Origin: Lactococcus allomyrinae
GTDB taxonomy: Bacteria; Bacillota; Bacilli; Lactobacillales; Streptococcaceae
DNA: 64,000 nucleotides
NCBI RefSeq assembly: GCF_003627095.1
Contig: NZ_CP032627.1
Span: 2,294,001-2,358,000, forward strand
Reading direction: 5' to 3'
The first letter of the stretch is position 1, and the number at the start of each line of letters is the position of its first letter. The notes under the pieces were generated by a model that had not been told where the DNA came from, searched no databases, and saw nothing but the letters and a program-made list of their open reading frames with translations. Shown here in pieces: positions 2,241 to 57,366 of this stretch. The position numbers and the translations under genes were made by a program.

Positions 2241-2256
2241 CTGTCAGTACTGACAG
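2241..2256. repeat. Repeated palindrome CTGTCAGTACTGACAG
   Basis: Perfect 16-bp palindrome in the gap before the EIIC gene; one of at least 14 copies in the window (see findings). Confidence 0.9.
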
Positions 2257-2321
2257 AAACTTAACCTCGTTCAAAAATATTTTTTGAGTAATTTATTATT
2301 AATTTCAAAGGAGGAAATTCC

Positions 2322-3826
2322 ATGAACGGAATTACTGCGTGGATGGAGAAATATCTCGTCCCAATTGCGGCAAAAATCGGGTCTCAAAAACACTTGGTTG
2401 CGCTGCGTGACTCATTCATTGGAATGTTGCCAGCAACACTTGCTGGTGCAATGGCTGCGTTAATCTCAGCTATCGTTACAACATTCCCATCAGCTCTTCA
2501 ACAGATGATTCAAGGACCAACTAAGGCAGCGGCTTCAGCAGCAGCTGGTACAGGGTGGACTTTGGCAAATACACCTGTTTTCAAAGAGTTAAACAACATC
2601 TCAGGACTTGTTAACCAAGGTACCCTAACAGTTATCGGTCTTATCTTTGCCTTTTCTTGGGTTACAACTTGGCGCGTGCTTATGGAGTCAATGACTTGGC
2701 TGGTGGTATTGTATCAACAGCAACATTGATGATGGGCTTACCAAACCAATTTGGTCGTTTCACTACAGCACTTGCTAATATTGGTGGAATGGATAAAGCA
2801 ACAGGTGCTTCAAAAGCTAATGATGCTGTCAACACTGTATTGTCAAACCAATTTATCGCTACATGGAAACCTGGTTTTGCGGCTGGGCAACTTGATGCTG
2901 GAGCATATTTCACTGTTATGATTATGGGTGCAATCGCAGTCATCATCTATGCAAAATTAATGCTTGCCGACATCACAATCAAAATGCCAGAATCAGTACC
3001 ACCTGCAGTAGCAAAAGCTTTCTTGGCTATCATTCCTACAATCGCAGCACTTTATATTGCAGGTATTATCTACTACATTGTAAATACACTTTCAGGCGAA
3101 TCACTCGTCTTCCTAATTCAAAAATATATCGCTCAACCATTCCAAATCTTGTCACAAAACATTATTTCCGTGCTGATTGTCACGATTTTTGTATCAATCT
3201 TCTGGTTCTTCGGAATTCATGGTCCAAATGTATTGTCACCAGCACTTGATGGTATCTGGGGACCTCTTGGACTTGACAACATGAACTTGTGGAACAAGAT
3301 TCATACATCAGGTATCCAACATTTGGTTGCTAATGGAGCAACTTCACGTGCGCACGCTATCAATGGTGAATATGTGAACATCTGGGTCCGTGGTTCATGG
3401 GATGCCTTCGCATGGTTTGGTGGTTCAGGTGGTACAATTACCCTTGTTCTTGCTATCCTTATCTTCTCTAAACGTAAAGATTACCAAATCGTTGGTCGTC
3501 TAGGACTTGCACCAGGTCTCTTCAATATCAATGAACCAGTTCTCTTTGGTTTACCAGTTGTATTGAATGCAATCTTTGCTATTCCATTCGTTGTGGCTCC
3601 ACTTGTAGCTGTTGTCGTTGCATATGTTGCAACAGCGCTTCAACTGGTTAACCCTGTCGTACTTGCAGTACCATGGGTAACACCACCAATCATGAATGCC
3701 TTCATGGCGACAGGTTTTGACTGGCGTGCGATTATCATTGCTGTCATCAACTTGGCAATTACTTTCTTCATCTGGGCACCATTTGTTATTGCTGCTAACA
3801 AGATGGAAGAAGCAGAACTTGACTAA
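2322..3826 (+). pseudogene. PTS lactose/cellobiose-family EIIC, frameshifted
   Basis: Two frames together make one EIIC of about 501 residues: multiple membrane spans, HGPNVLSPALDGIWGPL, and the signature GLFNINEPVLFGLP. The first frame (start ATG 2322, AAGGAGG just upstream) runs to ...GLIFAFSW and then leaves the conserved frame. The second resumes at GYNLARAYGVNDLAGG. Adding one G to the GGG at 2659-2661 restores a continuous protein. Either the gene is broken or one base was lost in sequencing (two other genes show the same lesion). EIIC carries the sugar-binding membrane channel; EIIA and EIIB are not next to it and would have to be supplied elsewhere. Confidence 0.85.
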
Positions 3827-3975
3827 TTTGAACTCTGTTATAGAGCAAGGAATCTCCTTGCTCTATACATTTTTTATTAAATATGATAAGATTTTGATAA
3901 AACCTTATCATATTTAATAAAAACTAAATCAATTTATTAGTTAGCGGTAAAAAACTCCGCAGAAAGGAAATTATT

Positions 3976-4188
3976 ATGATTATTGTAAATCTCGCTCAAA
4001 GACAAGAAGAAATTATCGCACTTTTGGAATCCAAAGGATACCATTTTGTAAAAAAACAGGGCATTAAGCTTTCTTTTGAAGTTCCAGAAGGAACAGAAGA
4101 CCTGAATGCTGCGGCAGTTGAGGTGAAAGCACTTATCAAGGGAACAGAGTGGGGGCCAGTGCTCTATTTCAACGTGGTAGTCGCATGA
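3976..4188 (+). CDS. Small conserved-looking protein, unknown function
   Basis: 70 residues beginning MIIVNLAQRQEEIIALLESKG, predicted mixed alpha/beta with a hydrophobic C-terminal strand (GPVLYFNVVVA). A good site (AGAAAGGAAA) precedes the ATG at 3976. It lies between the EIIC and 6-phospho-beta-glucosidase genes and overlaps the next frame by ATGA, so the two are probably translated together. I do not recognise the family. The position suggests an accessory role in sugar use, but nothing in the sequence proves it. Confidence 0.65.
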   Translation: MIIVNLAQRQEEIIALLESKGYHFVKKQGIKLSFEVPEGTEDLNAAAVEVKALIKGTEWGPVLYFNVVVA

Positions 4189-4379
4189 GTACATGGGGAG
4201 TTGCTTTTATTAGCTTAGGGCTTTTGCTCACAGCTTATCGAAATTGGTTCGGCTTGGTGGTTATTATATTAGGCGCTGTGATGATGATTGTAGCGCGTAA
4301 TAATAAAAAGAAAGCAGCGAAGTTGGAACAAGAGAAGCTACAAGAGCATAAAGAAACAAAAATAAAATCAAGAAAATAA
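4185..4379 (+). CDS. Small two-helix membrane protein, unknown function
   Basis: 64 residues starting at the ATG that overlaps the previous stop (ATGA at 4185-4188). Two hydrophobic segments (about residues 4-17 and 22-40) are followed by a highly charged Lys/Glu tail. Translation is likely coupled to the upstream small gene, since there is no strong ribosome site of its own. A longer start at 4149 is possible but would overlap the upstream gene more. No family recognised. Confidence 0.6.
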   Translation: MSTWGVAFISLGLLLTAYRNWFGLVVIILGAVMMIVARNNKKKAAKLEQEKLQEHKETKIKSRK

Positions 4380-4387
4380 TTTATAAA

Positions 4388-4416
4388 AAGTGACTTTCAA
4401 AAGAGTCGCTTTTTTT
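4388..4416 (+). terminator. Terminator after the small membrane protein
   Basis: Arms AGTGACT and AGTCGCT (one wobble pair) around a short loop, followed by seven T. Confidence 0.75.
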
Positions 4417-4511
4417 AGTGGATGTTGCAATAATATATGAAATCCCCTACCTCAAATTCTTCCGAACGTTGTATAGATAAATTAAAAACAAGTTCCGCAA
4501 TATGTAACACT

Positions 4512-4537
4512 AGAAAACGTTTCCAACGTGTTATAAT
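4512..4537 (+). promoter_or_regulatory. cre site and -10 box upstream of the GH1 gene
   Basis: AGAAAACGTTTCCA (4512-4525) matches 13 of 14 positions of the cre consensus. A perfect TATAAT lies at 4532-4537 with no clear -35. The cre sits in the -35 to -10 window, a position that gives CcpA repression. A hairpin with arms TTTTGCT and AGCAAAA (4575-4600) lies in the leader. Confidence 0.7.
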
Positions 4538-4637
4538 AAAAGAAATGCTAAGCTTGTGAAGCCATATATTTTACTTTTGCTTGAGCTACTCTTAGCAAAA
4601 TTGACTTTACACGACTAATATAAAAAAGGAGTAGAAG

Positions 4638-6074: not shown

Positions 6075-6083
6075 GAAGAATGA

Positions 6084-6105
6084 AGCACCTAGGGGTGCTT
6101 TTTTG
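6084..6105 (+). terminator. Terminator after bglA
   Basis: Arms AGCACC and GGTGCT followed by a T run. Confidence 0.85.
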
Positions 6106-6110
6106 ATTTA

Positions 6111-6119
6111 TGTTATAAT
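6111..6119 (+). promoter_or_regulatory. Extended -10 promoter of dut
   Basis: TGTTATAAT is a TGn extended -10 with a perfect TATAAT 28 bases before the dut start; no clear -35. Confidence 0.6.
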
Positions 6120-6146
6120 AGATAAAAAGATTTTGAGAGGTTTAGA

Positions 6147-6599: not shown

Positions 6600-6645
6600 T
6601 TTGGTTAAATTACTTGTGAAAAATGAGTCATAATCAAAGAATGAG

Positions 6646-6673
6646 TGCTGTCAGTATGCTGACAGCTTTTTTG
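6646..6673 (+). terminator. Terminator after dut built from the repeated palindrome
   Basis: GCTGTCAG / CTGACAGC arms (core 6648-6665) followed by a T run. One of several terminators using the window-wide repeat. Confidence 0.85.
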
Positions 6674-6717
6674 TCAGTAATTTTTTGGGAAATGGGGGAT
6701 GAGTGGTCGGTGAAATG

Positions 6718-6726
6718 TGCTATAAT
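6718..6726 (+). promoter_or_regulatory. Extended -10 promoter abutting the phosphoesterase start
   Basis: TGCTATAAT with only six bases to the ATG at 6733, placing the expected transcription start at or next to the A of the start codon, so the mRNA would be leaderless. Confidence 0.55.
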
Positions 6727-6732
6727 AGACCT

Positions 6733-8061: not shown

Positions 8062-8799
8062 ATGCCTAAAGAAATAGACGAAAGTAAATTAAACTATAAT
8101 AAGTATCCTGGCGAGCACGTAATCGCTAGTGGTGATGTGGTGTTGGTCGGAGACAAGACCTTTCATGTCGTACGGAATTATCGTGAAGCTTTTGATACGG
8201 AAAAATTGGAACAACGGTTTTCTGATGTTTTAGATAAGTATGATTATATTGTGGGAGATTGGGGCTTTGAGCAATTAAGGTTAAAAGGTTTTTTCTCTGC
8301 CAGTCGGAAAAAAATGGAAGCCGATAACAAAATTGACCATCTTGAAGATTATATCAACGAGTATTGTAATTATGGTTGTGCTTATTTTGTTCTGCGCCGT
8401 ATTCGTACGCGTGATGCAAAACGGACAGAGGCTTTTACGTCTGAAAAGATTTTTACTGAAAAAGAGATTAAACAAAAACTTGATAAACCACGTCGCAGAC
8501 GCAATCGTAATAAAAATCGAGCACGTGATGGACAAATTTCGGAAAAAATCAACACAATGGAAAATCGTATTGAAAAGCCTGAAGAACGCAGAAAAGGTTT
8601 TAAAATGCGTGAAAAATCTACTGACAGAGCGACAAAATCTACTGACAGAACTGTTCGTCAGCAAACATCAGGAAAATCACATACTGATAGTAAATTTACA
8701 GTGAATCATCGTACAAAGCCAAAAGTTAAATCTGAAGTGAAGAGTAAAGAGCAAGTAGGACAAGGTTTTGTCATTCGTACACGTGGGAAAAAAGAGTAG
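8062..8799 (+). CDS. yutD: YutD/DUF1027-family protein with basic tail
   Basis: 245 residues. The first ~115 residues form the DUF1027 domain (block around YDYIVGDWGFEQLRLKGF, then NEYCNYGCAYFVLRR). The rest is a long Lys/Arg-rich, low-complexity extension with KPRRRRNRNKNR and a duplicated KSTDR unit. Both KSTDR copies are encoded by the half-site ACTGACAG repeated across this window. The start directly follows the upstream stop (TAG then ATG). Function unknown; the basic tail suggests RNA or nucleoid contact, which is inference. The order phosphoesterase-yutD-rlmN is common in related genomes. Confidence 0.85.
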   Translation: MPKEIDESKLNYNKYPGEHVIASGDVVLVGDKTFHVVRNYREAFDTEKLEQRFSDVLDKYDYIVGDWGFEQLRLKGFFSASRKKMEADNKIDHLEDYINEYCNYGCAYFVLRRIRTRDAKRTEAFTSEKIFTEKEIKQKLDKPRRRRNRNKNRARDGQISEKINTMENRIEKPEERRKGFKMREKSTDRATKSTDRTVRQQTSGKSHTDSKFTVNHRTKPKVKSEVKSKEQVGQGFVIRTRGKKE

Positions 8800-9161
8800 T
8801 TTTGTTCCACGTTAAAATCCCGTTGAAGTTTAAAGGGGTCACCACAAGTAGCGTGTCATGGAAATGTTTCTGCGCTAGGCGCTAGGAAGTTAGACCGCAA
8901 CGTCAATCCGTTGCCGATTTTTACAATGGATTAACTATAGAAAGTGATTGCACTCAAAAATTTTACTGACGGAATGAATTGCTCTTGTCAAATTCAAATT
9001 TTTAGATTAAAATAGAGTCTTGTGTGCTGACAGATTTCTGTCAGTGTATTTATTAGCATCTGTCAGTATACTGATAGAAAAAATTTTTGATAAAAATGAA
9101 TGAGTCATTGCCAAATGAAAAGTAGAATGAGATAAATTGGCTGTGATAAAAGAAAGATAAA
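8800..9161. other. Intergenic region with dispersed repeat and inverted half-sites
   Basis: No gene seen in 362 bases. It contains dispersed element A (8851-8940) and several half-copies of the CTGTCAGT palindrome (an inverted pair near 9026-9045 and another near 9060-9076). The rlmN promoter is not clear. Confidence 0.6.
8851..8940 (+). repeat. Dispersed non-coding element A, copy 1
   Basis: About 90 bases that align with the reverse complement of 11340-11422. Shared blocks include CGTGTCATGG, TGCGC, TCAATCCGTT, GATTTTTAC and GGATTA-CTATAG. Confidence 0.7.
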
Positions 9162-10267: not shown

Positions 10268-10297
10268 AAATTCTGTCAGTATGCTGACAGAATTTTT
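10268..10297 (+). terminator. Terminator after rlmN built from the repeated palindrome
   Basis: CTGTCAG / CTGACAG arms (10273-10290) extended by AATT pairs and followed by T-rich sequence. Confidence 0.85.
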
Positions 10298-13528: not shown

Positions 13529-13559
13529 AAATAGCCTGTCAGTACTGACAGACTATTTT
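13529..13559. terminator. Palindrome at the 3' end of modC
   Basis: The 16-bp palindrome 13536-13551 is extended by AAAATAG on the left and CTATTTT on the right, giving a long symmetrical hairpin right at the modC stop. It may terminate transcription on either strand. Confidence 0.6.
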
Positions 13560-14182
13560 ATTTTAATGATATGATTTGTCAGTGCATCAAGTTCATTTTT
13601 TCGATGAGAAACAATGATGGTTGGAATTTGTTTTTCTTCAATGATTGATTTTAAGAGTTGACTGGCAAGCATTGCATTCTCCTCATCAAGTCCATTAAAA
13701 GGTTCATCAAGAAGGAGCAAACGAGGCTGACTGTATAGTGCCCTAGCAAGTGCGACACGTTGCTTTTGTCCACCAGAGAGTTTGTGTGTGGGCTGATGGA
13801 TTAGTTTTTCTATCCCTAACTTTTCTGTCAGTACTGACAGATCTTCTGCTTTGCTGACAGAGCGTTTTTGATGAGTTGTCAGTGGAAATCTGATGTTTTT
13901 TTCGACATCAAGGTGTGGAAAAAGAGAAACTTCTTGCATTACGAAAGCAAGATTTCTTTTGTAAGTTGGCTGAAAAATATGCTTTGAGCTTGATGCCCAA
14001 ACTTCATTATCAAAAGTAATCTCTGCTTGACTACTGAGAGATAAACCAGCGATATTTTTTAAGATAGTTGATTTTCCAATGCCAGAAGGCCCAGAAAGAC
14101 CAGTGATGAGTGAGGTAAATTCTGCTTCAAAATCGAGTCTTTGCAAGAAAAGTTGTTGATGGATTTTTACGGAAAGGGTCAT
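13553..14182 (-). CDS. modC: Molybdate ABC transporter ATP-binding protein
   Basis: 209 residues, just the nucleotide-binding domain: Walker A GPSGIGKST, Q-loop FVMQEVSLFPH, signature LSGGQKQRVALARAL, Walker B LLLLDEPFNGLDEE and switch His in IVSHR. It lacks the C-terminal molybdate-binding MOBE domain of longer ModC proteins. It energises molybdate import with ModB and ModA. Start ATG 14182 follows GGAG at the right distance; a TTG at 14194 would bury that site. The gene contains a full copy of the window repeat (13825-13840) read as LSVLTE. Confidence 0.88.
   Translation of the reverse strand: MTLSVKIHQQLFLQRLDFEAEFTSLITGLSGPSGIGKSTILKNIAGLSLSSQAEITFDNEVWASSSKHIFQPTYKRNLAFVMQEVSLFPHLDVEKNIRFPLTTHQKRSVSKAEDLSVLTEKLGIEKLIHQPTHKLSGGQKQRVALARALYSQPRLLLLDEPFNGLDEENAMLASQLLKSIIEEKQIPTIIVSHRKNELDALTNHIIKIK
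13825..13840. repeat. Repeated palindrome inside modC
   Basis: Perfect CTGTCAGTACTGACAG, read as LSVLTE on the minus strand. Confidence 0.9.
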
Positions 14183-14240
14183 GTCAAACTCCAATACGAT
14201 AGAGAGAAAGGTGAGGTCCAGATGTATTTTTACGATAGAA

Positions 14241-16884: not shown

Positions 16885-17906
16885 AAATTTATAATCTGCT
16901 CGAAAATCTTTTGAGCGACCTTTTCTTCTTCAAAATGATAGAACAAAATGCGTCCCTTTCTAAAAATTGTAATTTCATAATGTTCAAATTTGACTAAAAG
17001 AACAAGTGAATTTGATTTTAAGTCCCATTGTTTCATTTGACAAAATTGTTCGAATTTCTCAAGGTTAAAATGAGTAAGTGTAGACTGATAAACTCCGCCA
17101 CAGCTCCGTTCTACCCGCAGATTTCTGTCAGTACTGACAGAAAAATCATGACTGCAACAAGGGCAAGATTTTTGCTTTTTGATTGTAAATTGAGCAAAAT
17201 TTAAAGGCCAATTTTCAACAATATGCATGGTTTCCCAATCAACTGCAGAAGGAGCCACTAAAATTTGTAAGGCAAGGCTCACTTCTATTCCTGAAATTAA
17301 AGGAATCAAAGAAGTCACTACACCGATTGTTTCACAATTTCGCTCAAGTTCAATTAAATCAGGAAAGATACAAGATAGACAAGGTCCAAATCTAGGTTTG
17401 AGCGCCATTACTTGTCCGCTGGTTCCTGCGGCAGAGGCAAATACGAAAGGTAAATCATGATGTAAGCAAAACTCGTTAATCAACTCTCGTGCTAAAAAGT
17501 TGTCGGTACAATCAAGTACCAAATCAAGCTTTCCAAAATCATCAAAAAGCGTGTGTTCAAAAGATTCATTACGAGCCGTGATTGTGACTTCGGGATTAAT
17601 TGCAAGTAGTGCCTCTCGTGCTGCAAAAACTTTGAAATGAGAAAATTTAACATCGGCCGTTGTAAAAAGTGCCTGTCGTTGAAGATTTGATTTCTCAACA
17701 ATATCTGGGTCAATCAAAAAAAGATGTCCAACTCCAGCGCGAGTCAGTTGTTCGGCGGCATAAGTGCCAAGCGCACCGCAACCCACGATGAGTACACGAG
17801 AATTTGTTAGTTTTTCTTGACCAGCAAGTCCGATTTGTGGTACTCGAATTTGTCTGTCGTAGCGGTTTTTATCTGTTTTCATTCTAAAAACTTTCATAGA
17901 GCACAT
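16881..17906 (-). CDS. moeB: MoeB/ThiF-family adenylyltransferase with C-terminal extension
   Basis: 341 residues. It begins near RYDRQIRVPQIGLAGQEKL, with nucleotide loop VGCGALGTYAAEQL, then DCTDNFLARELIN. Zinc cysteines lie in CLSC and CPCC. About 85 C-terminal residues after the zinc site form an extra domain of unknown role. It would adenylylate the C-terminal Gly-Gly of MoaD for sulfur loading. None of the starts at 17906, 17897 or 17882 has a good ribosome site; the last keeps all conserved sequence. It carries a full repeat copy (17125-17140) read in another frame (SVSTDR). Confidence 0.85.
   Translation of the reverse strand: MCSMKVFRMKTDKNRYDRQIRVPQIGLAGQEKLTNSRVLIVGCGALGTYAAEQLTRAGVGHLFLIDPDIVEKSNLQRQALFTTADVKFSHFKVFAAREALLAINPEVTITARNESFEHTLFDDFGKLDLVLDCTDNFLARELINEFCLHHDLPFVFASAAGTSGQVMALKPRFGPCLSCIFPDLIELERNCETIGVVTSLIPLISGIEVSLALQILVAPSAVDWETMHIVENWPLNFAQFTIKKQKSCPCCSHDFSVSTDRNLRVERSCGGVYQSTLTHFNLEKFEQFCQMKQWDLKSNSLVLLVKFEHYEITIFRKGRILFYHFEEEKVAQKIFEQIINL
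17125..17140. repeat. Repeated palindrome inside the moeB-like gene
   Basis: Perfect 16-bp copy, read as SVSTDR in a different frame from the other intragenic copies. Confidence 0.9.
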
Positions 17907-22099: not shown

Positions 22100-24181
22100 C
22101 TAAAGTTCATTGAGCGCTGGTTGAGAACTTTTCCTGAAAATGAAATATAGCCCAATCAGCAATACAATAATTGCTAATATTGTCATGGTTTGAATACCAT
22201 ATCCGCTAATTGCTCGTCCCAACTGATAAATGATGAAACTCATACTGTAAGCGACCAAAGTTTGAAATCCTACTGCACGAATCGTCCATTTTAACTCTCC
22301 CATTTCCTTATAAATCGTAGAAATGGCAGCTACGCAAGGGGCGCAAAGCAAATTGAAGACAAGGAGAGAATAAGCAGAAAGTGGGGTGTAGGCTTGACGG
22401 ACGTTTTCCCATAAGACATGCGTTGAGCTTGAGTTGTGTGCATAGAGGACACCCATCGTTCCGACGATTGTTTCTTTTGCAATCAAACCGGTAAGCGTAG
22501 CCACAGTAGCGCGCCATTCACCAAAACCAAGTGGAGCAAAGAAGATGGCAACGACTTTACCGAAGTCTGCTAAAATAGAATGACTAGAATCAACTTGTTG
22601 GAAATCCCAAGCGTAGTTTGAAGTAAACCAAATTAGAACATTCATCGCAAAAATAATTGTTCCTGCACGCTTGATAAAGCTAAATGCACGGTCAAAAGCG
22701 TACTTGAAGACAGTGAGAGCGTGTGGGAGATGATACATCGGTAATTCCATGATGAAAGCGGAGGTATCACCAGAAAACATTCGTGTTTTCTTAAGAATGA
22801 TTCCAGATAAAATAATCATTCCCATTCCTAAGAAATAAGCACTAGGTGCCACCCAGCTCGCGTGTCTAAAGAAAGCACCAGAAACAAGTGCAATAATTGG
22901 CAACTTAGCCGAACAAGGCATAAAAGTTGTGACCATAATTGTAATTTTTCGGTCACGTTCTTGTTCGATTGTACGTGTTGCCATAATCCCAGGAACACCG
23001 CAACCAGAAGCGATAAGCATTGGAATAAATGATTTACCAGATAAACCAAAACGACGGAAGATACGATCCATGACAAAGGCAACCCGAGCCATATATCCAG
23101 AATCTTCAAGAATTCCAAGTAATAGAAAAAGTACAAAAATCTGTGGTACAAAACCTAAAATTGCACCAATACCAGCTACGACACCATTTAAGACCAAGTC
23201 TTGAAGCCAAGGAACAATCGCAAGACTATGCATTCCAGTAGAAATCCAGCTAGGTATGAGCTGACCAAAGAAAACATCATTGACCCAGTCCGTTGCAGCA
23301 GTACCAACGGTTTGGATAGAAAGGAAATAAACCAACCACATGATAAAGACAAAAATTGGCAATCCTAACCACTTATGAGTGATGATACGGTCAATTTTAT
23401 CAGTCATGTTTGCTTTTCCGGTTGATGTATCACTTACACAAAGATTGACAATATGACCGATAAGGTCATAGCGCTCGTTGACAATAATAGATTCACGGTC
23501 ATCAGCCATAATTTTTTCGGTGATATTGACAATTTCTTCAAGCTCGGACTTTTGGTTTTCTGTCAGTACTGACAGTGCAATTTTGTCAGCTTCAAAAGCT
23601 TTGATTTGGTCAAAACGGCTTGTAAAGCCAGTCACCTTAGCGATTTCAGATAAAGCCCCTTCAAGCCTGTGATCATAATCTAATGGCTTAATCTCGTGGG
23701 TCTTTAGCGCAAGATTGACGGCTTCATCTAAACCTTTGTTTTTGATGGCAGAAGTAGTAACAACAGGAAGCCCCAAACTGTAAGATAATTTTTCTGTGTC
23801 AATCTTTTTGCCAAGAGATTCAACCAAGTCACTCATATTCAAAGCAAGAACCATTGGAATACCAAATTCCATGAGTTGTAGAGTGAGATATAGTGAGCGC
23901 TCAAGATTTGTTGAATCCACAATATTAATCAGCACATCAGGAGGGGTTTTAGATAGAAAGTCACGTGCGACTTGCTCATCTGGTGAGTAAGGAGAGAGCG
24001 AGTATAGACCTGGTAAATCTTGGATACAAATTGATTTATCTTTTTTATAAAAACCAGATTTGCGTTCAACAGTAACACCAGGCCAGTTCCCAACTTGTTG
24101 ATTTGAGCCAGTCAATATATTAAAGATACTCGTTTTTCCGCTATTGGGATTACCAAGCAATGCAATTATTTTCATATTCAT
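22100..24181 (-). CDS. feoB: Ferrous iron transporter FeoB
   Basis: 693 residues. The N-terminal G domain has G1 GNPNSGKTS, G3 DLPGLYSLSPYSPDEQ and G4 NMSD; a helical spacer and about eight to nine membrane spans with Gate motifs (SGCGVPGIMATR, MPCSAKLPI) follow. It imports Fe(II) under anaerobic or acidic conditions. It lies 105 bases after feoA, same strand. A full repeat copy (23560-23575) is read as LSVLTE between G domain and helical spacer. Iron supply would support the iron-sulfur-rich NarGH encoded next door. Ribosome site weak. Confidence 0.95.
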   Translation of the reverse strand: MNMKIIALLGNPNSGKTSIFNILTGSNQQVGNWPGVTVERKSGFYKKDKSICIQDLPGLYSLSPYSPDEQVARDFLSKTPPDVLINIVDSTNLERSLYLTLQLMEFGIPMVLALNMSDLVESLGKKIDTEKLSYSLGLPVVTTSAIKNKGLDEAVNLALKTHEIKPLDYDHRLEGALSEIAKVTGFTSRFDQIKAFEADKIALSVLTENQKSELEEIVNITEKIMADDRESIIVNERYDLIGHIVNLCVSDTSTGKANMTDKIDRIITHKWLGLPIFVFIMWLVYFLSIQTVGTAATDWVNDVFFGQLIPSWISTGMHSLAIVPWLQDLVLNGVVAGIGAILGFVPQIFVLFLLLGILEDSGYMARVAFVMDRIFRRFGLSGKSFIPMLIASGCGVPGIMATRTIEQERDRKITIMVTTFMPCSAKLPIIALVSGAFFRHASWVAPSAYFLGMGMIILSGIILKKTRMFSGDTSAFIMELPMYHLPHALTVFKYAFDRAFSFIKRAGTIIFAMNVLIWFTSNYAWDFQQVDSSHSILADFGKVVAIFFAPLGFGEWRATVATLTGLIAKETIVGTMGVLYAHNSSSTHVLWENVRQAYTPLSAYSLLVFNLLCAPCVAAISTIYKEMGELKWTIRAVGFQTLVAYSMSFIIYQLGRAISGYGIQTMTILAIIVLLIGLYFIFRKSSQPALNEL
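23560..23575. repeat. Repeated palindrome inside feoB
   Basis: Perfect 16-bp copy, read as LSVLTE. Confidence 0.9.
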
Positions 24182-31661: not shown

Positions 31662-32189
31662 TTACTGATAGTTGTGGTTGGTAAGCTCAATCTCAGGTAG
31701 GGTTATTGAGGTTGCTTGGATAGAGGTTAAAAAATCTTGCATTCGACGGTTTTTATTTTCCAGAAAATCTTGTATTTGGGTGTGGCTGAAAGTAAGGTGA
31801 GCAATGGTGAAATTATTTTTGATATAAGTATTTTTTACTGACAGAAGTTCTGTCAGTGATTGTACCGAAATCTCTGGATAATCTACGGCTAAAATTAAAT
31901 AATCATGTGTGTCTGTAACTATTGATGAAACGGTGTATAAGCCTGCCAGAGGTCCTTCTCCTGTGAAAAGTGGATGGTCAGTAATAATGTGTGCTGACGG
32001 AAGTTGTTTTTTGATTTGAGGAAGATTAGAATGGCTTGCAACGATATAAGTTTTTTCTGTCAGTGCTGACAGTTTCATATAAGCGATTTCTGTCCAAGTT
32101 TGATTGGAGTTTTTATCTAAAAATAGAGCTTTATCCCCATTTTTAAAGCGACTGGACTTTCCACCCGCTAGAATGATTCCGATAGTCAT
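31662..32189 (-). CDS. mobA: Molybdenum cofactor guanylyltransferase
   Basis: 175 residues. The nucleotide loop LAGGKSSRFKNGDKAL opens the protein; HPLFTGEGPLAGLYT and AVDYPEIS (Asp for metal) follow. It attaches GMP to molybdopterin to give the bis-MGD form that NarG requires. It converges on narI, tail to tail. A full repeat variant (32057-32072) reads LSALTE. Confidence 0.9.
   Translation of the reverse strand: MTIGIILAGGKSSRFKNGDKALFLDKNSNQTWTEIAYMKLSALTEKTYIVASHSNLPQIKKQLPSAHIITDHPLFTGEGPLAGLYTVSSIVTDTHDYLILAVDYPEISVQSLTELLSVKNTYIKNNFTIAHLTFSHTQIQDFLENKNRRMQDFLTSIQATSITLPEIELTNHNYQ
32057..32072. repeat. Repeated palindrome variant inside mobA
   Basis: CTGTCAGTGCTGACAG, read as LSALTE. 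Confidence 0.85.
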
Positions 32190-35538: not shown

Positions 35539-35783
35539 AAGTGAAAAAGGTAAAACTATTTGGCTTTCTTGGCGCATTTATCGCACCAGAGATTAAACTT
35601 GATTTACCAGATAAAATTAATAAAAATATCATTCTGTCAGTACTGACAGAGCAATATCCGATGCATCGAACAGAGTTTTTGCAGTGTAATGTCGCTGTAA
35701 ACCAAGTTTACATCTTTGACGAAGAAGTTGACAGTAGAAATATTGAAGAAATTGCAATTATTCCACCTGTCAGTGGTGGATGA
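35535..35783 (+). CDS. moaD: Molybdopterin synthase sulfur carrier subunit
   Basis: 82 residues, ubiquitin-like fold ending IAIIPPVSGG; the C-terminal Gly-Gly is thiocarboxylated after activation by the MoeB-like protein. The start overlaps the moaE stop. A full repeat copy (35634-35649) in the middle encodes LSVLTE, a surprising place for a shared sequence in such a small protein. Confidence 0.93.
   Translation: MKVKKVKLFGFLGAFIAPEIKLDLPDKINKNIILSVLTEQYPMHRTEFLQCNVAVNQVYIFDEEVDSRNIEEIAIIPPVSGG
35634..35649. repeat. Repeated palindrome inside moaD
   Basis: Perfect 16-bp copy, read as LSVLTE. Confidence 0.9.
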
Positions 35784-35786
35784 AAG

Positions 35787-35804
35787 CTGTCAGTATGCTG
35801 ACAG
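35787..35804. repeat. Repeated palindrome after moaD
   Basis: CTGTCAGTATGCTGACAG, same variant as at 6648 and 10273, but without a strong T run, so terminator function is uncertain. Confidence 0.8.
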
Positions 35805-38761: not shown

Positions 38762-39559
38762 ATGATGATTAAACTAATTTTAACAGATTTAGACGGTACA
38801 TTTCTCAATTCCAGCGGGGGGTTTGATGCTGACAGGTTCCAAAAAATTCTGTCAGCACTGACAGAAAAAGGAATTTCCTTTGGAGTAGTGACAGGAAAGC
38901 AGACAGAGCGTGTAGAAGAACTTTTTGGTGACTTGTCCAAGAAAATATGGATTTTGGGAGATTCTGCGAGTCGGATAAAATTCAATGGAAAATTTGAATT
39001 TCAGCAACTCATTCCAAATGCTCAAGGCAAGCAGTTGATTCAAAAATTAGAAGAAATTCATGCTGACCAGACCATCATTGCCTGCACAGAAAGCGCAGCG
39101 ATTATCAAAGAAAGTCAGGCAGAGCTTGATGGAGAGGTGGTTAGAGGGTCTTATGCAGTGATGAAGGTGGTCAAAGATTTCAGCGAAATCACCGAGGATT
39201 TTGTCAAAGTGACAGTATTTGATAGGCAAAAGCGTTGCTACGAAAGCTTTGAGCGGCTAAAGGCTGAACAAGAGCAATTTTACATTGTGGCAAGTGAAGC
39301 AGCTTGGATTGATATCACATCAAAAGGGATCCACAAAGGTACAACCGTACAAAAATTGCAGGAATTGCTTTGTGTTTCTGTCAGTGAGACAATGGCTTTT
39401 GGAGATGGCTATAATGATTTTGAACTGCTGGCTCAAGCTAAATTTAGTTATGCGATGGCCAATGCTTTTCCAGAAGTACAGGCTCAAGCTAGCTTTATCG
39501 CACCAACGAATGATGAATCTGGTGTCTTGCAAGTAATCGAGCAAGAGCTTATCAAATAG
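38762..39559 (+). CDS. HAD-superfamily (Cof-type) phosphatase
   Basis: 265 residues. Catalytic motif DLDGTFLN near the N-terminus, a variable cap domain, then KGIHKGTTVQKL (motif III Lys) and GDGYNDFELL (motif IV). Cof-type HADs dephosphorylate sugar phosphates or flavin-type compounds; the substrate cannot be told. ATG 38762 or 38765 both fit AGAAAGAAG. A repeat variant (38849-38864) reads LSALTE. Terminator at 39582-39609. Confidence 0.87.
   Translation: MMIKLILTDLDGTFLNSSGGFDADRFQKILSALTEKGISFGVVTGKQTERVEELFGDLSKKIWILGDSASRIKFNGKFEFQQLIPNAQGKQLIQKLEEIHADQTIIACTESAAIIKESQAELDGEVVRGSYAVMKVVKDFSEITEDFVKVTVFDRQKRCYESFERLKAEQEQFYIVASEAAWIDITSKGIHKGTTVQKLQELLCVSVSETMAFGDGYNDFELLAQAKFSYAMANAFPEVQAQASFIAPTNDESGVLQVIEQELIK
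38849..38864. repeat. Repeated palindrome variant inside the HAD phosphatase gene
   Basis: CTGTCAGCACTGACAG, read as LSALTE. Confidence 0.85.
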
Positions 39560-39581: not shown

Positions 39582-39609
39582 AAGCTGTCAGCGTGCTGAC
39601 AGCTTTTAA
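39582..39609 (+). terminator. Terminator built from the repeated palindrome
   Basis: AAAGCTGTCAGC and GCTGACAGCTTT arms (core 39585-39602). Confidence 0.85.
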
Positions 39610-45027: not shown

Positions 45028-45028
45028 T

Positions 45029-45622: not shown

Positions 45623-45626
45623 TGTA

Positions 45627-45890: not shown

Positions 45891-45897
45891 TCAATAG

Positions 45898-47001
<1,104 letters not shown>

Positions 47002-47008
47002 AAAATTT

Positions 47009-47038
47009 ACTGACAGAGTTAAAAGTGACTCTGTCAGT
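47009..47038 (+). terminator. Hairpin after rmlB made of inverted repeat half-sites
   Basis: ACTGACAGAG and CTCTGTCAGT perfect arms; T content after it is low, so it may only attenuate. Confidence 0.65.
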
Positions 47039-47105
47039 AATTATATACTGATAAATGGGTTTCTACATCTGTCAGTAAATTAATGAATCTGAAAGTAGAG
47101 AAAAT

Positions 47106-48005: not shown

Positions 48006-48399
48006 TGAAAATTTACTGACAGAATTTCTGTCAGTGAAATACTTATTGTTTTACTAACAGAAATTCTGTCAGTAAGATAATAGAAGTAAAGAATTCTGTC
48101 ATGGTGCAACTTCTAATACTGTTTAACTTTTAAAAGACGCTTTTAGAGGTTACTTCGCTCCGTTGTCGATCTCGCTATGCTAGTCGCAGTCGCAACCTTT
48201 GCGTTTCACGAAAAACTCTCTTGCGCTTGATGCTACTTTTCAAGGCTACGGATGAGAAAAGTATTGCTTTTCCCAATTGTTGCAAAGTAGATGAACTAGT
48301 ATAAGAGTTACGGTGCTGACAGAATTCTCGTTTTGAGAAGCTAGAAAAAATCGCTAGAGTCAAAAGACAAATAGCGCTTAAAGTAGCCAAAGGAAGAAC
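48006..48399. other. Intergenic region between rmlD and rgpA
   Basis: 394 bases, no gene seen. It begins with two inverted half-site hairpins (48015-48035: ACTGACAGA and TCTGTCAGT; and about 48053-48073). The remainder is repeat-like, mixed-composition DNA, including a stretch (near 48295-48304) related to dispersed element B in reverse. Confidence 0.55.
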
Positions 48400-49544
48400 A
48401 TGAAAAAACACATTTTTATCATTGGCAGTCGTGGTCTGCCAGCGAAATATGGCGGTTTTGAGACATTTGTTGAAGAACTTGTCAAGCATCAACATAATAA
48501 AAATATTCAATATCATGTAGCTTGTCAAAGCGAGAATTCAGATAGAGCTGCTGCGGGGAGCATTTTGACTATCTTGGAGCAGATTGTTTTGTGGTCAAAG
48601 TTCCCAAAATTGGTCCGGCGCGTGTCATTGCATATGATATTTTAGCTATTAACGCTGGACTTAGACAGTGTAAGGTTGAAAATATAGAGCGACCTATTTT
48701 TTATATTTTAGGTAATACGATTGGTGGCGTTATTGGGCACTATTCAAGAAAAATCCATAGGATCGGCGGTAGACTATTTGTCAATCCAGATGGTCTTGAA
48801 TGGAAACGGACGAAATGGGCGCCCTCTGTGCGTAAGTATCTTAAAATTGCCGAGAAAAAGATGGTGAAAAATGCAAATCTTATCATCTCAGATAATGCTG
48901 GGATTAAAGAATACTTAACCTCAGAATATGGCAAAATTGATACCGAAATTATCGCTTATGGCACTGAAAAATTTAGTTCAAATTTGACAGAATCAAAAAC
49001 TTTGGTAAAATATAAGGTTAGAGATTACTATTTGATTGTAGGGCGTTTTGTACCAGAAAATAATTATGAATTATTGATTCGTACATTTATGGCAAGTAAG
49101 ATAACGCGGGATTTAGTCATTATCACGAATTACGCGGGGAATAGTTATTACGAAGAACTTCGAGAGAAGACAGGATTTGATAAAGATTCACGCATCAAAT
49201 TTGTTGGTACCGTTTATAATCAAAATGAGCTGCGATTCATTCGTGAACACGCGTTTGCTTATTTGCATGGTCATGAAGTCGGAGGAACCAATCCAGGTCT
49301 GCTGGAAGCGATGTGGTCAACACCTGTCAATGTGGTGTTGGGTGTTAATTTCAATCAGACAACTGCTGGCGAATCTGTCATATATTTTGACAAAAAAAAT
49401 CTTCTGTCAGTACTGACAGAAATTGAAAATATGACTGATGAAACTAGAAAGCTTCTTCATGAGAAGGCCCACAAAATTATTGAAGAAAAATATACTTGGG
49501 AACATATCTGCACCCAATACGAGGAACTTTTTGTTGAAAGTTAA
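48400..49544 (+). pseudogene. rgpA: Rhamnosyltransferase RgpA (DUF1972/GT4), frameshifted
   Basis: The first frame opens MKKHIFIIGSRGLPAKYGGF, the DUF1972 start that begins rhamnan assembly. The rest (VPKIGPARVIAYDILAINA, NPDGLEWKRTKW, GHEVGGTNPGLLEAMW) is in the next frame. Adding one G to GGGG at 48555-48558 gives AAAGEHFDYLGAD and a continuous protein of about 381 residues. Real mutation or a one-base sequencing loss. It carries a full repeat copy (49404-49419) read as LSVLTE. Confidence 0.88.
49404..49419. repeat. Repeated palindrome inside rgpA
   Basis: Perfect 16-bp copy, read as LSVLTE. Confidence 0.9.
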
Positions 49545-50471
49545 TATACTAATGTCAACCTACAATGGCGAAAAGTACATCGCTGAACAAATTGAAAGTA
49601 TACAAAAACAGACCTTTAAAGATTGGCAGCTCATCATTCGTGATGATGGCTCTAAAGATACAACCTGTAAAATTGTGGAAACTTTTATCACTGGCGATAA
49701 GCGTATTCGTTTAATAAGAGCAGAGAATGTTGGAGTTATCCAATCATTTTATGAATTAGTAAAAGTAGAAACTGTAGATTTTTATTTCTTTGCAGACCAA
49801 GATGATTACTGGCTTCCAGAAAAACTGGAAATCATGCTAAACGAAACACAAAAACATGATAACAGCAAACCTGTTATGTATTATACTGATTTAAAGGTTA
49901 CTGACAGAAATCTGTCAGTAACAAGAGAATCTATGATTAAAACTCAATCCAGTCATCCGAATACTCAACTTGTTCAAGAACTGACAGAAAATACAGTAAC
50001 GGGCGGGCTAGTATGATTAACCATGCACTAGCTGAGCATTGGCTTACAACGAATGATATCATCATGCATGATTGGTACTTGGCGCTTTTAGCAACAGCGG
50101 TAGGCCAGTTGGTCTTTATTGATATTCCGACGCATCTTTATCGTCAGCATGATTCTAATGTTTTAGGCGCTAGGACGTTAACCAAACGGATGAAGAAATG
50201 GGTTCATCCAAAATCATGGTTTGAAAAATATTGGTGGTTGATTAATGCTAGCCAAAAACAAGCAAAAAAAATACTGACGGAAAATATATCACTGCTGACA
50301 GAGCAAAATAAACAACTTATTGAAGCTTTTGTTAAAGTATTAGATTACCCACGAAAAGAGCGCAGACATATTTTAAACCAATACAACTTACGGAAGAATA
50401 AAAAGTATCATACATACATTTTCCGTGCGCTTCTCATCACAAAATTTGCATACAAAGGAAAAAATAAATGA
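49534..50471 (+). pseudogene. rgpB: Rhamnosyltransferase RgpB (GT2), frameshifted
   Basis: Start TTG 49534 overlaps rgpA, eight bases after GAGGA. GT-A motifs: ILMSTYNGEKYIAEQIES, RDDGSKD and FADQDDYW. The frame leaves the family at ...ENTVTGG and resumes as MINHALAEHW, IIMHDWYLALLA, YRQHDSNVLG. One G added to GGG at 50005-50007 restores VTGGASMINH and about 312 residues. It would add rhamnose to the growing chain. Confidence 0.88.
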
Positions 50472-51277: not shown

Positions 51278-51290
51278 AAGGAGCTGAAAA

Positions 51291-52472: not shown

Positions 52473-52500
52473 AAAATATGATAAAAGAAAGGAGAAGATA

Positions 52501-54549: not shown

Positions 54550-56128
54550 AAACACAGGAAAAGAATTATTAAAGAATCGCTGGTGGATGTTAGCTTTCTT
54601 TTTGATTTTAATACTATCACAATTTGCTATACAGTATCGTCCTTTGATTATCCCAAAGAAGTATTTATTCATTGTGATTGTAGCTATGCTACTGCTCTTT
54701 TCTTTGACGAGACTTCGAGAGATTAAAAAATTACCTCTTAATACGTTTCTAATAATTATGATTTTGGGCACTGTAAATACTTTGGTATTACCAGTGCGAC
54801 AAGAATTGGACGAAAATACTCACTTTTTCTACGCTGTACAAATCGCTGATGGACAGTTTTTTAAAAGAGATTTTAACCAAATGAAGTTTCTTCAAATGTC
54901 CCCCAATTTTTTGGAAATAACACAGCTTCCTAGTAAACCAGAATATGGAAGTAAGACCAATACGAATCTTTATTCTCGAGAATTTTTGCGTCTTAAGAAC
55001 CAGAAAAATGACTATTCACATGCAGGGCCAATTACAGGAATTGCTAATCCAGTTTATTATCCTTCGGCTTTAGGAATTGCATTAGGACGTTTTATTAGTC
55101 CATATCTTTTTGTAAGTTACTATTTGGGCCGAGTATTTAACTTGTTGATGTATGCATTGTTGGCATTTTTTGCAGTCAAAAAAAGCAAAAGATACCAACT
55201 TCCTCTTTTTGTTGTCGCATTTTTACCATATACCTTGTGGATTACGGCAGGCTATAATTATGATGCGCTTTACTATGGTGTAATCTTGCTTTTTCTATCT
55301 CAGCTGACCAATCTTTTTACAGAGGAAAAAGGTATTAGTTTAAAACAAATGGTGCGAATATCATTGACTGGATTGTTACTTGTTTTTTGTAAAGCTCCAA
55401 TGGCGCTTCTGATAATCCTCCCATTTTTCTTGCCTAAAAAGGTTTTTGCTTCAAATAAGGTGAGACTACAAGCACTAGGAATGCTCGCTTTTTCTTCAGC
55501 TTTGATATTTGCGTGGGTTAAACAGGGGATGATCCTTGAGAAATTACGCCTTATCTTTGGGAGAACTCTACCAGATACTGCTGGGGGTGCAGGTGGAAAT
55601 GTTGGAAGAGTAGATTATTTTCTAACACATCCGTTATATACGGTAACAACAGGGTTACGAACAGTTTTCGATATTCCGTCCACTATAAAAGATTCTATTG
55701 CAAGCCCACAGCCCTTTTTAAATAAAATCTACTCGTCAGGTGCAGTCGAATTATTTAATATTTTGCTAGTGGCATTACTTTTCGTTTTGGTGAGCTTACA
55801 GCTGGACTTTCAAGTTTCTAAACGCATCAAAATTGTGACTATTGTTCTGTTTGGTGCCATTACAGCAGGGATTATTTATGCGATTTCGGGAGATTCACGT
55901 GTTTTTCATATTGGAGATTTAACAGTGGCAGGAGTACAAGGCCGTTATCATTTTTACATCTTGGCGTTCTTGCCAATATTTTTAGAAAAACCAGTCAAAA
56001 AAATTTTTGATCGAAAAATGGTGGGTTCTGAAAGAACAAACGACTTTAACATTCAAAAATTTGTTGTTAGTGCCGTTTTAGTGATGACATTTGTTAATAC
56101 TTGTATTGGATTGTTTGGGTATTTATGA
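54536..56128 (+). CDS. DUF2142 multi-span membrane protein
   Basis: 530 residues with about eleven membrane spans. The large outside loop after the second hydrophobic region has ELDENTHFFYAVQIADG, the conserved start of DUF2142, a group thought to include GT-C-type glycosyltransferases using polyprenyl-phosphate sugars. It overlaps rgpF by 14 bases (CGGAG site inside rgpF). The polyprenyl-P glycosyltransferase at 58183 could supply its donor. Confidence 0.85.
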   Translation: MNFLKNTGKELLKNRWWMLAFFLILILSQFAIQYRPLIIPKKYLFIVIVAMLLLFSLTRLREIKKLPLNTFLIIMILGTVNTLVLPVRQELDENTHFFYAVQIADGQFFKRDFNQMKFLQMSPNFLEITQLPSKPEYGSKTNTNLYSREFLRLKNQKNDYSHAGPITGIANPVYYPSALGIALGRFISPYLFVSYYLGRVFNLLMYALLAFFAVKKSKRYQLPLFVVAFLPYTLWITAGYNYDALYYGVILLFLSQLTNLFTEEKGISLKQMVRISLTGLLLVFCKAPMALLIILPFFLPKKVFASNKVRLQALGMLAFSSALIFAWVKQGMILEKLRLIFGRTLPDTAGGAGGNVGRVDYFLTHPLYTVTTGLRTVFDIPSTIKDSIASPQPFLNKIYSSGAVELFNILLVALLFVLVSLQLDFQVSKRIKIVTIVLFGAITAGIIYAISGDSRVFHIGDLTVAGVQGRYHFYILAFLPIFLEKPVKKIFDRKMVGSERTNDFNIQKFVVSAVLVMTFVNTCIGLFGYL

Positions 56129-57366
56129 TGAAAAATATATTATTTATTTCCCCAACTGGAACGCTTGATAATGGAGCCGAAATTTCAATTTTTAATCTTC
56201 AAAAGGTACTGGTAAAACAAGGCTATCATGTGATAAATGTAACGCAAGCTTCTGGAGATATACCATATATAACAGCGTTTGAGTCCGCAGGTATCAAAAA
56301 CTTTATGTTAGATGCAGTCAAATGGTGGTGGGAAGATGCACCAGGTCCTGTTCAAGGAACTCAGCGTGAACTCTATCATTATTATCGTGAACATATTGCA
56401 AGTATTCAACATATAGTAGAAGATGAGAAAATTGATTTAATTATCACTAATTCTGTGAATATGTTTCAAGGAGCAGTGGTTGCTGCGATAGAAGGCATTC
56501 CCCATTTTTGGCTTATCCATGAATTTCCTGAGGACGAGTTTTCATACTATGTGGACAAGCTAGATTTCGTAAATGAATTTTCGACAGAAATTTTTGCAGT
56601 GCAGGGTCGCTTACAAGAAAAGTTACAAGAAATTATTCATAATCGCAAAATTCACAGTTTTTACCCGTTTACAAAAATTTCTGATACTCCTTTATCAGTT
56701 GGTGAGAAAACGCGCATAGTGTCTGTTGGTCGACTCACAGAAAGAAAAAATCAATTGGAATTGCTTGAGGCTTATAGCAAATTAAACCGCCCCGAAATTG
56801 AGTTGATTTTAATTGGAAACTTTGATAAGGAATACAAGCAAAAAGTTGTAAAATTCATTGATGAAAAAGCCTTTAAAAACGTGACTTTGGTTGGTCCACA
56901 AGATAATCCGTGGTCATTAATTACTGACAAAGATATTTTTGTCAGTTCTTCAAAAATGGAAACTTTTGGTTTGGTCTATGTTGAGGCATTATTGCATGGT
57001 GTGCCGAGTATTGTGTCAAATAATCCAGGACATCTGTCAGCAAACGATATTTTTGATTTTGGAAAATTTTATGAAATAGGAAATACTGATCAGTTGGTAA
57101 ATTTACTTGCCGACAGTCTTAAAAATTTCGATACACAGAAAAAAGAGAGTCTGTCAGTACTGACAGAACTTCGCAAAGCTTATTCTGTGGGAAAAGCTTA
57201 TCAAGAAATCATGGATTTTATCGAAAGAGATTTTGACAAAAAATCAAACTCTATCAGGCATTTATCAAAATTACTGATGCTTAATGATCACAATCCAGAT
57301 AAACTGACAGCTAGAATCAAACGCATTATCAAAACCATACTCATCAAAACGAGGATTTTACGATGA
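56125..57366 (+). CDS. Glycosyltransferase family 4
   Basis: 413 residues, GT-B fold: SPTGTLDNGAEISIFNL start, WLIHEFPEDEFSY, RIVSVGRLTERKNQLELLEA and SSSKMETFGLVYVEALLHG (Glu-x7-Glu region). Sugar and acceptor unknown; part of the variable side chain. ATG 56125 overlaps the upstream stop. A full repeat copy (57151-57166) reads LSVLTE. Confidence 0.9.
   Translation: MMKNILFISPTGTLDNGAEISIFNLQKVLVKQGYHVINVTQASGDIPYITAFESAGIKNFMLDAVKWWWEDAPGPVQGTQRELYHYYREHIASIQHIVEDEKIDLIITNSVNMFQGAVVAAIEGIPHFWLIHEFPEDEFSYYVDKLDFVNEFSTEIFAVQGRLQEKLQEIIHNRKIHSFYPFTKISDTPLSVGEKTRIVSVGRLTERKNQLELLEAYSKLNRPEIELILIGNFDKEYKQKVVKFIDEKAFKNVTLVGPQDNPWSLITDKDIFVSSSKMETFGLVYVEALLHGVPSIVSNNPGHLSANDIFDFGKFYEIGNTDQLVNLLADSLKNFDTQKKESLSVLTELRKAYSVGKAYQEIMDFIERDFDKKSNSIRHLSKLLMLNDHNPDKLTARIKRIIKTILIKTRILR
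57151..57166. repeat. Repeated palindrome inside a GT4 gene
   Basis: Perfect 16-bp copy, read as LSVLTE. Confidence 0.9.

Follow-up and report, generated by a model that had tools for sequence, protein, structure and literature searches.

Why does one short palindrome recur, both between genes and inside unrelated ones, along a stretch of the Lactococcus allomyrinae chromosome, and what might read it? The stretch (NCBI RefSeq assembly GCF_003627095.1, contig NZ_CP032627.1, positions 2,294,001 to 2,358,000; 64,000 nucleotides, hereafter the window) had drawn attention through 14 sites of a 16-18 bp palindrome, and a position-by-position check found the claimed sequence at all of them: eight are exact copies of CTGTCAGTACTGACAG, two (32057 and 38849) have one altered central base, and four (6648, 10273, 35787 and 39585) are 18-bp forms with a four-base centre. 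The palindromes are built from a smaller unit, CTGTCAG, whose copies are spaced in register with the DNA helix in three Lactococcus genomes. Our best explanation, to which we assign a probability of roughly 45%, is that the motif is a lineage-specific self-label of the Lactococcus chromosome, similar to the DNA uptake sequences (DUS) of other bacteria, and that a multivalent protein would recognise it in double-stranded DNA, contacting several sites along one helix face.

Abundance and the repeat unit

With at most two mismatches, the 16-mer was matched 12 times in the window against 0.01 expected, in agreement with its proposed rarity by chance, and the half-site CTGTCAGT was found 52 times against 1.5 expected. 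Twenty-eight of these half-sites lie within open reading frames (ORFs) of at least 120 amino acids, taken from a list in which 56 of 63 ORFs were retained after overlapping ones had been removed by hand. Nor is the motif confined to the window. The whole genome (G000; 2,758,410 bases in three contigs) contains 94 exact palindromes, 203 copies of CTGTCAGNNCTGACAG and 1,413 of CTGTCAGT (687 and 726 by strand), as compared with 0, 0 and 69 (40 and 29) for the reversed word of each motif, which served as control. Chance is therefore rejected as the cause, by both the window and whole-genome counts. One CTGTCAGT per approximately 1,950 bp fits the one per 1-2 kb typical of DUS and of uptake signal sequences (USS).

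The original prediction had centred on the 16-18 bp palindrome, which is not the unit. The actual unit is the near-symmetric 7-mer CTGTCAG (CTG, one base, CAG) plus its flanks, usually a T in front and TA or CA behind, and the palindrome is two such units about one helical turn apart. The unit centres lie 9 bp apart in the 16-mer and 11 bp apart in the 18-mer, and the distance in between, 10 bp, is nearly never used (one pair, vs. 37 and 38 at the neighboring distances 9 and 11), as would be expected if an A were preferred two bases past the G of every unit. In a sample consisting of the window and 17 further stretches of 20 kb from the same genome (404 kb), 25 of 32 18-mers were intergenic, and 22 of these adjoin a T run and therefore look like terminator stems, while 24 of 34 16-bp forms were coding, 19 of them without a T run. 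Sites thus occur as terminator stems as well as inside unrelated genes, as had been claimed, and inverted pairs used in terminators and copies inside genes are both features of the DUS type.

Helical register of the sites

In L. allomyrinae, distances between CTGTCAG copies peak at 9, 11, 20-22, 29-31, 38-43, 49-53, 59-63, 69-74 and 81-84 bp, with few in between. Phasing was quantified with the Rayleigh statistic nR2 on pair distances of 16-120 bp, some of the pairs being interdependent. At 10.5 bp, nR2 was 49.1 for the 140 pairs of L. allomyrinae (best period 10.35 bp), 39.0 for 131 pairs of a close sister genome, G011 (10.25 bp), and 14.3 for 58 pairs of a genome that we take as L. lactis (G007, from its 86.5% identity to L. 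cremoris over approximately 4 kb; 10.25 bp), against a maximum of 3.6 among control words (47 tried, 40 with at least 30 pairs). The first two genomes have a common ancestry, so that their results are partly linked.

Where 50% of the pairs would be expected in the in-phase half, 69 of 76 coding and 41 of 56 intergenic pairs were found there in L. allomyrinae, and the same holds for 28 of 33 pairs of opposite orientation within genes. The corresponding coding and intergenic figures were 52/63 and 46/59 in G011, and 16/16 and 28/42 in L. lactis. With only one pair kept per cluster, 58 of 70 (nR2 24.1), 55 of 65 and 18 of 24 (6.1) pairs were in phase in the three genomes, respectively. Degenerate sites belong to the pattern: a perfect word was paired with a one-mismatch word at 14-75 bp 294 times in L. 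allomyrinae against 122 expected, with an nR2 of 59.1, and TTGTCAG accounts for 115 of these pairs. The corresponding nR2 was 29.3 in G011 and 7.5 in L. lactis, and the controls gave 0.9 (two-mismatch words) and 3.6 (shuffled words). With TTGTCAG included, the register fades with distance, i.e. from 76.0 at 16-57 bp to 18.3 at 58-99 bp, 3.6 at 100-141 bp and 11.9 at 142-183 bp. Counting dyad partners, 283 of 397 sites in the L. allomyrinae sample have a neighbor within 75 bp. L. cremoris agrees on fewer pairs (30 TGTCAG pairs, nR2 11.2), and in the relative G009 that genome's own word CTGTCAA is phased (63 pairs, 9.3).

Codon periodicity is rejected as the source of the spacing, as the period-3 signal amounts to 8.2, 2.5 and 0.1 in L. 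allomyrinae, G011 and L. lactis, against the 49.1, 39.0 and 14.3 given above, and intergenic and opposite-strand pairs are phased too. Longer dispersed repeats are likewise rejected, since the spacers between phased sites are all distinct sequences in these three genomes. Because the register is independent of strand and coding, double-stranded DNA would appear to be contacted on one face by a holder of multiple sites; judged from the sequence, such one-face spacing implies a multivalent protein as the putative reader. We know of no precedent for helical phasing of such sites, and to our knowledge none is known for uptake sequences; its novelty is a belief, as no literature search was directed at helical register and terms for it were sought only inside three uptake-sequence papers.

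Gene context and distribution over the chromosome

Gene context was examined in the 404 kb of L. allomyrinae, in 15 stretches (300 kb) of G011 and in eight stretches (160 kb) of L. lactis, with gene calls that simply took the longest ORF, which makes the context classes approximate. Out of 397 CTGTCAG copies in L. allomyrinae, 231 were coding (96 sense, 135 antisense). Densities per 10 kb, resting on 388 sites since nine at stretch ends were left unclassed, were 6.9 in coding sequence (reversed control word 0.6), 24.5 in codirectional gaps, 44.2 in convergent and 7.0 in divergent ones. G011 showed the same order (7.0, 21.8, 30.0 and 5.4, respectively), and the figures for L. lactis were 3.9, 29.7, 14.7 and 3.3.

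Enrichment of the motif in L. lactis is already published. Mrazek, Gaynon and Karlin are said to have named a motif containing TACTGAC in 2002, and perhaps to have likened it to uptake signals. The frequent L. lactis oligonucleotide gtcagtaa/ttactgac, which belongs to the same word family, lies downstream of genes (19% in L. lactis IL1403) and is rare among genes of phages, prophages and transposons (4% of them), according to excerpts of a paper that credits the word frequency to Mrazek et al. 2002 and the destabilisation of mRNA to a separate study (PMC2526093). These excerpts deal with one species and an mRNA role, and describe neither dialects, a palindromic form nor helical phasing. Among the matches listed from the open-licence literature, as far as their text was available, no paper treated dialects or a palindromic form of the motif, and none contained the 16-mer.

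An element acting at the RNA level, i.e. a terminator stem or an mRNA-stability signal, would be in line with the position of gtcagtaa 3' of genes and its description as mRNA-destabilising in the excerpts of PMC2526093, as well as with the T runs beside intergenic 18-bp dyads. It fits poorly with the 231 coding sites, the majority of which are antisense, and with the coding 16-bp dyads that lack a T run. Furthermore, phasing in either orientation requires double-stranded DNA, and a register on the double helix therefore argues against a purely RNA-level role. As the sole function, we regard an RNA element as improbable.

The original prediction had proposed a map of the motif from origin to terminus. 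The 94 palindromes are evenly distributed over the chromosome (Kolmogorov-Smirnov p 0.75), with no confinement to the terminus of the kind seen for matS, and the strand totals are balanced over the whole genome, leading and lagging strands being pooled. These pooled totals give no sign of the strong replication-linked strand bias expected of a guide sequence for RexAB or FtsK, similar to Chi or to the FtsK orienting polar sequences (KOPS), and to that extent would count against one, although a short, frequent, chromosomal word is what such a guide would look like. Lactococcus moreover already has a Chi, GCGCGTG. A KOPS is cited as identified and validated for L. lactis in an excerpt of PMC4786541. 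We regard a guide of this type as very unlikely.

Outside the chromosome the motif is scarce. The small contigs of L. allomyrinae, presumably plasmids (48 of 63 kb), carry four CTGTCAG against four control words, and those of L. lactis (33 kb) two against three. In the relative G012, CGTCAGTA and CGTCAGCA occur once and twice in 47 kb of small contigs, as compared with 55 and 63 times in 160 kb of chromosome. The phages sk1, Tuc2009, c2 and TP901-1 (125 kb) have 17 CTGTCAG against five control words, yet the density in L. lactis predicts approximately 90, so that the motif is scarce there despite exceeding the control. Among 2.9 million viral contigs, the 16-mer was found in 16 stretches, as a single copy in each. 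A distant match of the rlmN region to phage records (nine unannotated records, 67-74% identity) is uninformative on the motif.

Dialects in related species

Relatives were named by 100% identity over the same approximately 4 kb: G001 is L. cremoris NBRC 100676, G005 L. hircilactis, G016 L. taiwanensis, G013 Lactococcus sp. dk101, G010 L. petauri, G006 L. ileimucosae and G008 L. garvieae EP01. Counts of CTGTCAGT for the two strands combined (reversed control in parentheses) were highest in G011 with 1,545 (49), ahead of the 1,413 of L. allomyrinae, followed by L. lactis 1,216 (75), L. hircilactis 993 (52), L. cremoris 948 (65), L. taiwanensis 591 (38), sp. dk101 399 (62), G002 149 (49), G012 141 (47), G009 97 (57) and G015 76 (62). 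The count did not exceed the control over the whole genomes of G003, G004, L. ileimucosae, L. garvieae, L. petauri, G014 and G017, and no enriched relative of the motif was found in sampled DNA of L. petauri, L. garvieae, L. ileimucosae, L. formosensis, G003, G004 and G017. Of 245 genomes of the family, 21 have CTGTCAGNNCTGACAG, with more than 100 copies in five (L. allomyrinae, L. hircilactis, G011, sp. dk101 and G045, the last from another genus); its reversed control occurs in a single genome, G002.

The species use variants of the motif (CTGTCAGTAA, CTGTCAGTACTGACAG, CTGTCAGCGCTGACA, CGTCAGTAA and CTGTCAAAA) that share a common core, as do those of DUS and USS lineages. L. allomyrinae and G011 have CTGTCAGTA(C), L. 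lactis and L. cremoris TTCTGTCAGTAA, L. taiwanensis an outward pair with CTGTCAGTAACTTT, L. hircilactis mostly the strict 16-mer, sp. dk101 CTGTCAG with mixed centres, G012 CGTCAGTAA and CGTCAGCAT, G009 CTGTCAAAA, and an outgroup, a metagenome-assembled genome (MAG) of the Streptococcaceae, CTGTCAGCGCTGACA. A tree of rlmN recovered two clades, the garvieae group and one holding lactis, cremoris, L. allomyrinae, G011 and G012, and left the deep branches open; few of its inner branches were resolved (six of 19 starred), with a bootstrap that had not settled.

Two other words turned up in these genomes. In G009 (L152, L153, L215-L219), GCGCGTGA is enriched (17 vs. 2.2 expected) and contains GCGCGTG, which we take to be the lactococcal Chi. 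In G004 (L162-L163), GCACAGCAC and overlapping words occur approximately 26 times in 40 kb, probably as one repetitive stretch.

Turnover of the sites

The sister genome G011 is 93.1% identical to L. allomyrinae across 150 kb aligned of 204 kb, and allowed the comparison of orthologous positions that had been suggested for gain and loss of the motif. Among 180 aligned L. allomyrinae sites, 147 were identical in G011, 25 differed by substitutions only (17 by one base) and eight had a core interrupted by a gap, in several cases within badly aligned DNA; in the reverse view, 186 G011 sites gave 147, 31 and eight, respectively. Substitutions without gaps account for 25 of the 33 sites that differ in the first view and for 31 of 39 in the second, so that point mutation is the main route of gain and loss. 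The conserved share of CTGTCAG was 0.835 (147/176), as compared with 0.672 for 7-mers overall, and the excess holds in intergenic DNA (62/75, all words 0.632) as well as within genes (85/101, all words 0.678). One-mismatch words were 1.59-fold enriched, and two-mismatch words showed no enrichment (0.94-fold).

The palindromic, scattered nature of the motif could suggest a tiny mobile palindrome, of the repetitive extragenic palindromic (REP) or miniature inverted-repeat transposable element type, dispersed by a transposase. Insertion as the main source of copies is nevertheless rejected by the gap-free substitutions that explain most differences between the two genomes, and half-sites and degenerate sites belong to the pattern, with spacers that are all different. 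The REP elements and bacterial interspersed mosaic elements of Escherichia coli are likewise palindromic and often 3' of genes, but longer, transposase-linked and intergenic, in contrast to a motif that is mostly born by substitution and also lies within genes. Of the explanations considered, we find mobile origin the least credible.

Candidate readers of the motif

The DUS of Neisseria, read by the minor pilin ComP, resemble the motif in having approximately a thousand or more copies on both strands, inverted pairs in terminators, and dialects with a constant core. Unlike DUS, the Lactococcus motif has a Gram-positive host, a near-symmetric core and helically spaced arrays, and its uptake role and receptor are putative. 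The USS of Pasteurellaceae, with ComN/PpdA as candidate receptor, are comparable in their high density and differ in being recognised as single sites with AT flanks. Excerpts of the literature report that ComP binds DUS (PMC12040237), that USS in Haemophilus influenzae have a mean spacing of approximately 1,000 bp (PMC7811141) and that USS come in two dialects with a common inner core (PMC12616744); the available portions of the latter two papers do not describe helical arrays of USS. The proposed likeness to uptake sequences thus holds for the sequence-level features examined, namely abundance, occurrence on either strand, even distribution, inverted pairs in terminators, rarity in phages and presumed plasmids, turnover largely by point mutation, dialects with a shared core and the presence of com genes, whereas for uptake itself it would be an analogy.

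Under the self-label explanation, sites of the TGTCAG type on one helix face would be contacted together by a multivalent protein, for which we favour the competence pilus. In-register arrays would be bound more tightly, and DNA bearing them would be taken up and recombined more often. Such an uptake bias, or molecular drive, could build and maintain the label, and a change of receptor might let all copies shift together, giving rise to dialects. More tentative than the self-label as such is the proposal that the motif would be the first DNA-uptake self-recognition code in a Gram-positive bacterium, with arrays of 20-100 bp or more held simultaneously by a repeating receptor, either the tip or the shaft of the competence pilus, so that self DNA would be marked by arrays and not by individual words, and dialects would separate species. 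If so, sequence-specific uptake would not be confined to Gram-negatives, a harmless and easily manipulated food bacterium would become a model for the evolution of codes and receptors, and strain builders would add arrays to donor DNA.

The competence genes were searched for a receptor in 18 genomes, with comGC present in all 18 and a comEC domain in 17. L. allomyrinae has a ComEA-like ORF and a row of pilin-like ORFs after comGC, the ComEA-like and comG genes except ComGC being named by pattern and position only. Comparison of ComEA and the comG pilins gave no receptor candidate, among ComEA-like ORFs that a filter recovered in 13 of 17 comEC loci and comG genes recovered in 15 of 18 comGC loci. 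As a separate observation, the comEC domain lies in shortened open frames in L. cremoris (L195, 473 amino acids) and G003 (L205, 386 amino acids), as compared with 733-758 in the 15 others. In Streptococcus pneumoniae, DNA binding depends on residues of two minor pilins, chiefly ComGF but also ComGD, according to excerpts of PMC12040237. L. lactis with intact com genes took up and recombined a linear chromosomal fragment, and efforts to transform strain KF147 with linear plasmid DNA failed under conditions of weak competence, as stated in excerpts of PMC11244767. The 3.7-kb rpsL donor of that study, judged by the primer names given there, seems to span fusA-dacA and may hold some copies of the motif. 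In L. lactis (G007, L242, reverse-strand coordinates 3962-8891), the D-Ala-D-Ala carboxypeptidase gene in the dacA position has five CTGTCAG.

The strongest competitor is a sequence-specific protein that organises or wraps the chromosome (a nucleoid protein, a condensin loader or a wrapping topoisomerase), with sites kept by structural selection. This alternative had also been raised in the original prediction, and is strengthened by the helical phasing, which was missed there. Register over tens of bp that weakens past 100 bp and includes degenerate sites is what the sites of such a protein would be expected to show, and it is found in L. allomyrinae, G011 and L. lactis but was not seen in four other species. 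In the first two genomes, sites are dense between convergent and codirectional genes and sparse between divergent ones, a distribution matching regions downstream of genes where positive supercoils would collect. Conservation above that of the average word is consistent with selection on structure as well. On the other hand, a concerted shift of approximately a thousand sites would be difficult if each were selected singly, the garvieae group manages without the motif, and the palindromes have no origin-terminus pattern, of the kind that matS and KOPS show. As the remaining pattern is what uptake sequences show, we rank an uptake code highest, closely followed by a protein that coats or wraps the chromosome, which we consider possible though doubtful. 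If the latter were correct, the motif would mark an unknown and highly sequence-specific chromosome protein; with either, the phasing makes a statistical curiosity of 2002 experimentally approachable.

Several observations weigh against the uptake-type self-label. A protein coating or wrapping the chromosome would account for the helical phasing no less well. The motif-free garvieae group also has com genes, which therefore do not track the motif. No phasing beyond the built-in dyad was seen, on 10-26 pairs each, in L. taiwanensis (CTGTCAG, 10 pairs, nR2 2.4; TGTCAG, 26 pairs, 1.7), L. hircilactis (TGTCAG, 16 pairs, 1.0), sp. dk101 (23 pairs, 1.0) or the outgroup MAG (14 pairs, 1.1). In G009, TGTCAAAA is not phased (4.1; best period 13.9 bp), and the CGTCAG pairs of G012 give 9.6 at a period of 10.4 bp, a value exceeded at 13.35 bp (12.8), its longer words giving 4.6 at 16-57 bp. 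L. allomyrinae also shows the weaker period-3 signal mentioned above. Six of 67 other 7-mers with at least 100 occurrences were conserved equally well or better. The L. lactis genes rpsL, rpsG and fusA, adjoining the one in the dacA position, have zero CTGTCAG, a point that either model allows. Lastly, H. influenzae genomes are reported to be without periodicity of uptake ratios in the excerpts of PMC7811141, which do not amount to a test of site spacing.

Sites and neighboring genes in the window

Coordinates of the sites are collected in Table 1. The segment 10268-10298, around the dyad 3' of rlmN, recurs elsewhere in the genome at 97-100% identity.

Table 1. Dyads and clusters of the motif in the window.
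Feature	Position	Strand	Context
16-bp dyad CTGTCAGTACTGACAG	2241..2256		intergenic
18-bp dyad CTGTCAGTATGCTGACAG, then CTTTTTT	6648..6665		intergenic, terminator-like
pair of ACTGACAG sites spaced by two helical turns (21 bp)	8620..8648	-	in YutD-like gene
CTGACAGATTTCTGTCAG and near-dyad with one mismatch (9060-9077); CTGTCAGT begins at 9038 and, 22 bp further on, at 9060	9027..9077		intergenic cluster, 5' of rlmN
18-bp dyad CTGTCAGTATGCTGACAG, then AATTTTTTG	10273..10290		directly 3' of rlmN, terminator-like
16-bp dyad	13536..13551		intergenic
16-bp dyad; extra CTGACAG 20 bp past second arm	13825..13840		in ABC-transporter ATPase gene
16-bp dyad	17125..17140		in MoeB/ThiF-like adenylyltransferase gene (NCBIfam scores under cut-offs)
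16-bp dyad	23560..23575		in feoB
outward dyad CTGACAGAAGTTCTGTCAG	31838..31856		in MobA-like gene
16-bp dyad, centre TG	32057..32072		in the same MobA-like gene
16-bp dyad	35634..35649		intergenic
CTGTCAGT and 18-bp dyad beginning 20 bp later	35767..35804		intergenic
16-bp dyad, centre CA; CTGACAG 20 bp upstream	38849..38864		in HAD-family hydrolase gene
18-bp dyad CTGTCAGCGTGCTGACAG, then CTTTTAATTA	39585..39602		between convergent ORFs
three sites, 7-mer cores 21 and 38 bp apart	47009..47076		between two ORFs
cluster with outward dyad (48016-48034) and more sites	48015..48073		intergenic
16-bp dyad	49404..49419		in ORF with DUF1972 domain
outward dyad CTGACAGAAATCTGTCAG	49901..49918		in ORF
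16-bp dyad	57151..57166		in glycosyltransferase-like gene (scores under cut-offs)

The window also holds, in this Lactococcus, the respiratory nitrate reductase genes narGHJI (24899-31546) beside molybdenum-cofactor genes (13553-17906 and 31662-37016). The four nar ORFs have zero CTGTCAGT, and several neighboring cofactor genes carry copies; the absence may reflect a later arrival or constraint. Pieces of the intergenic region 8804-8947 match other places in L. allomyrinae and G011 (72-94% identity over approximately 40-140 bp), perhaps as a longer dispersed repeat. Finally, rmlD and glycosyltransferase-like genes form a cluster at 44158-63228, the last ORF of which matches a cholinephosphotransferase model below the cut-off.

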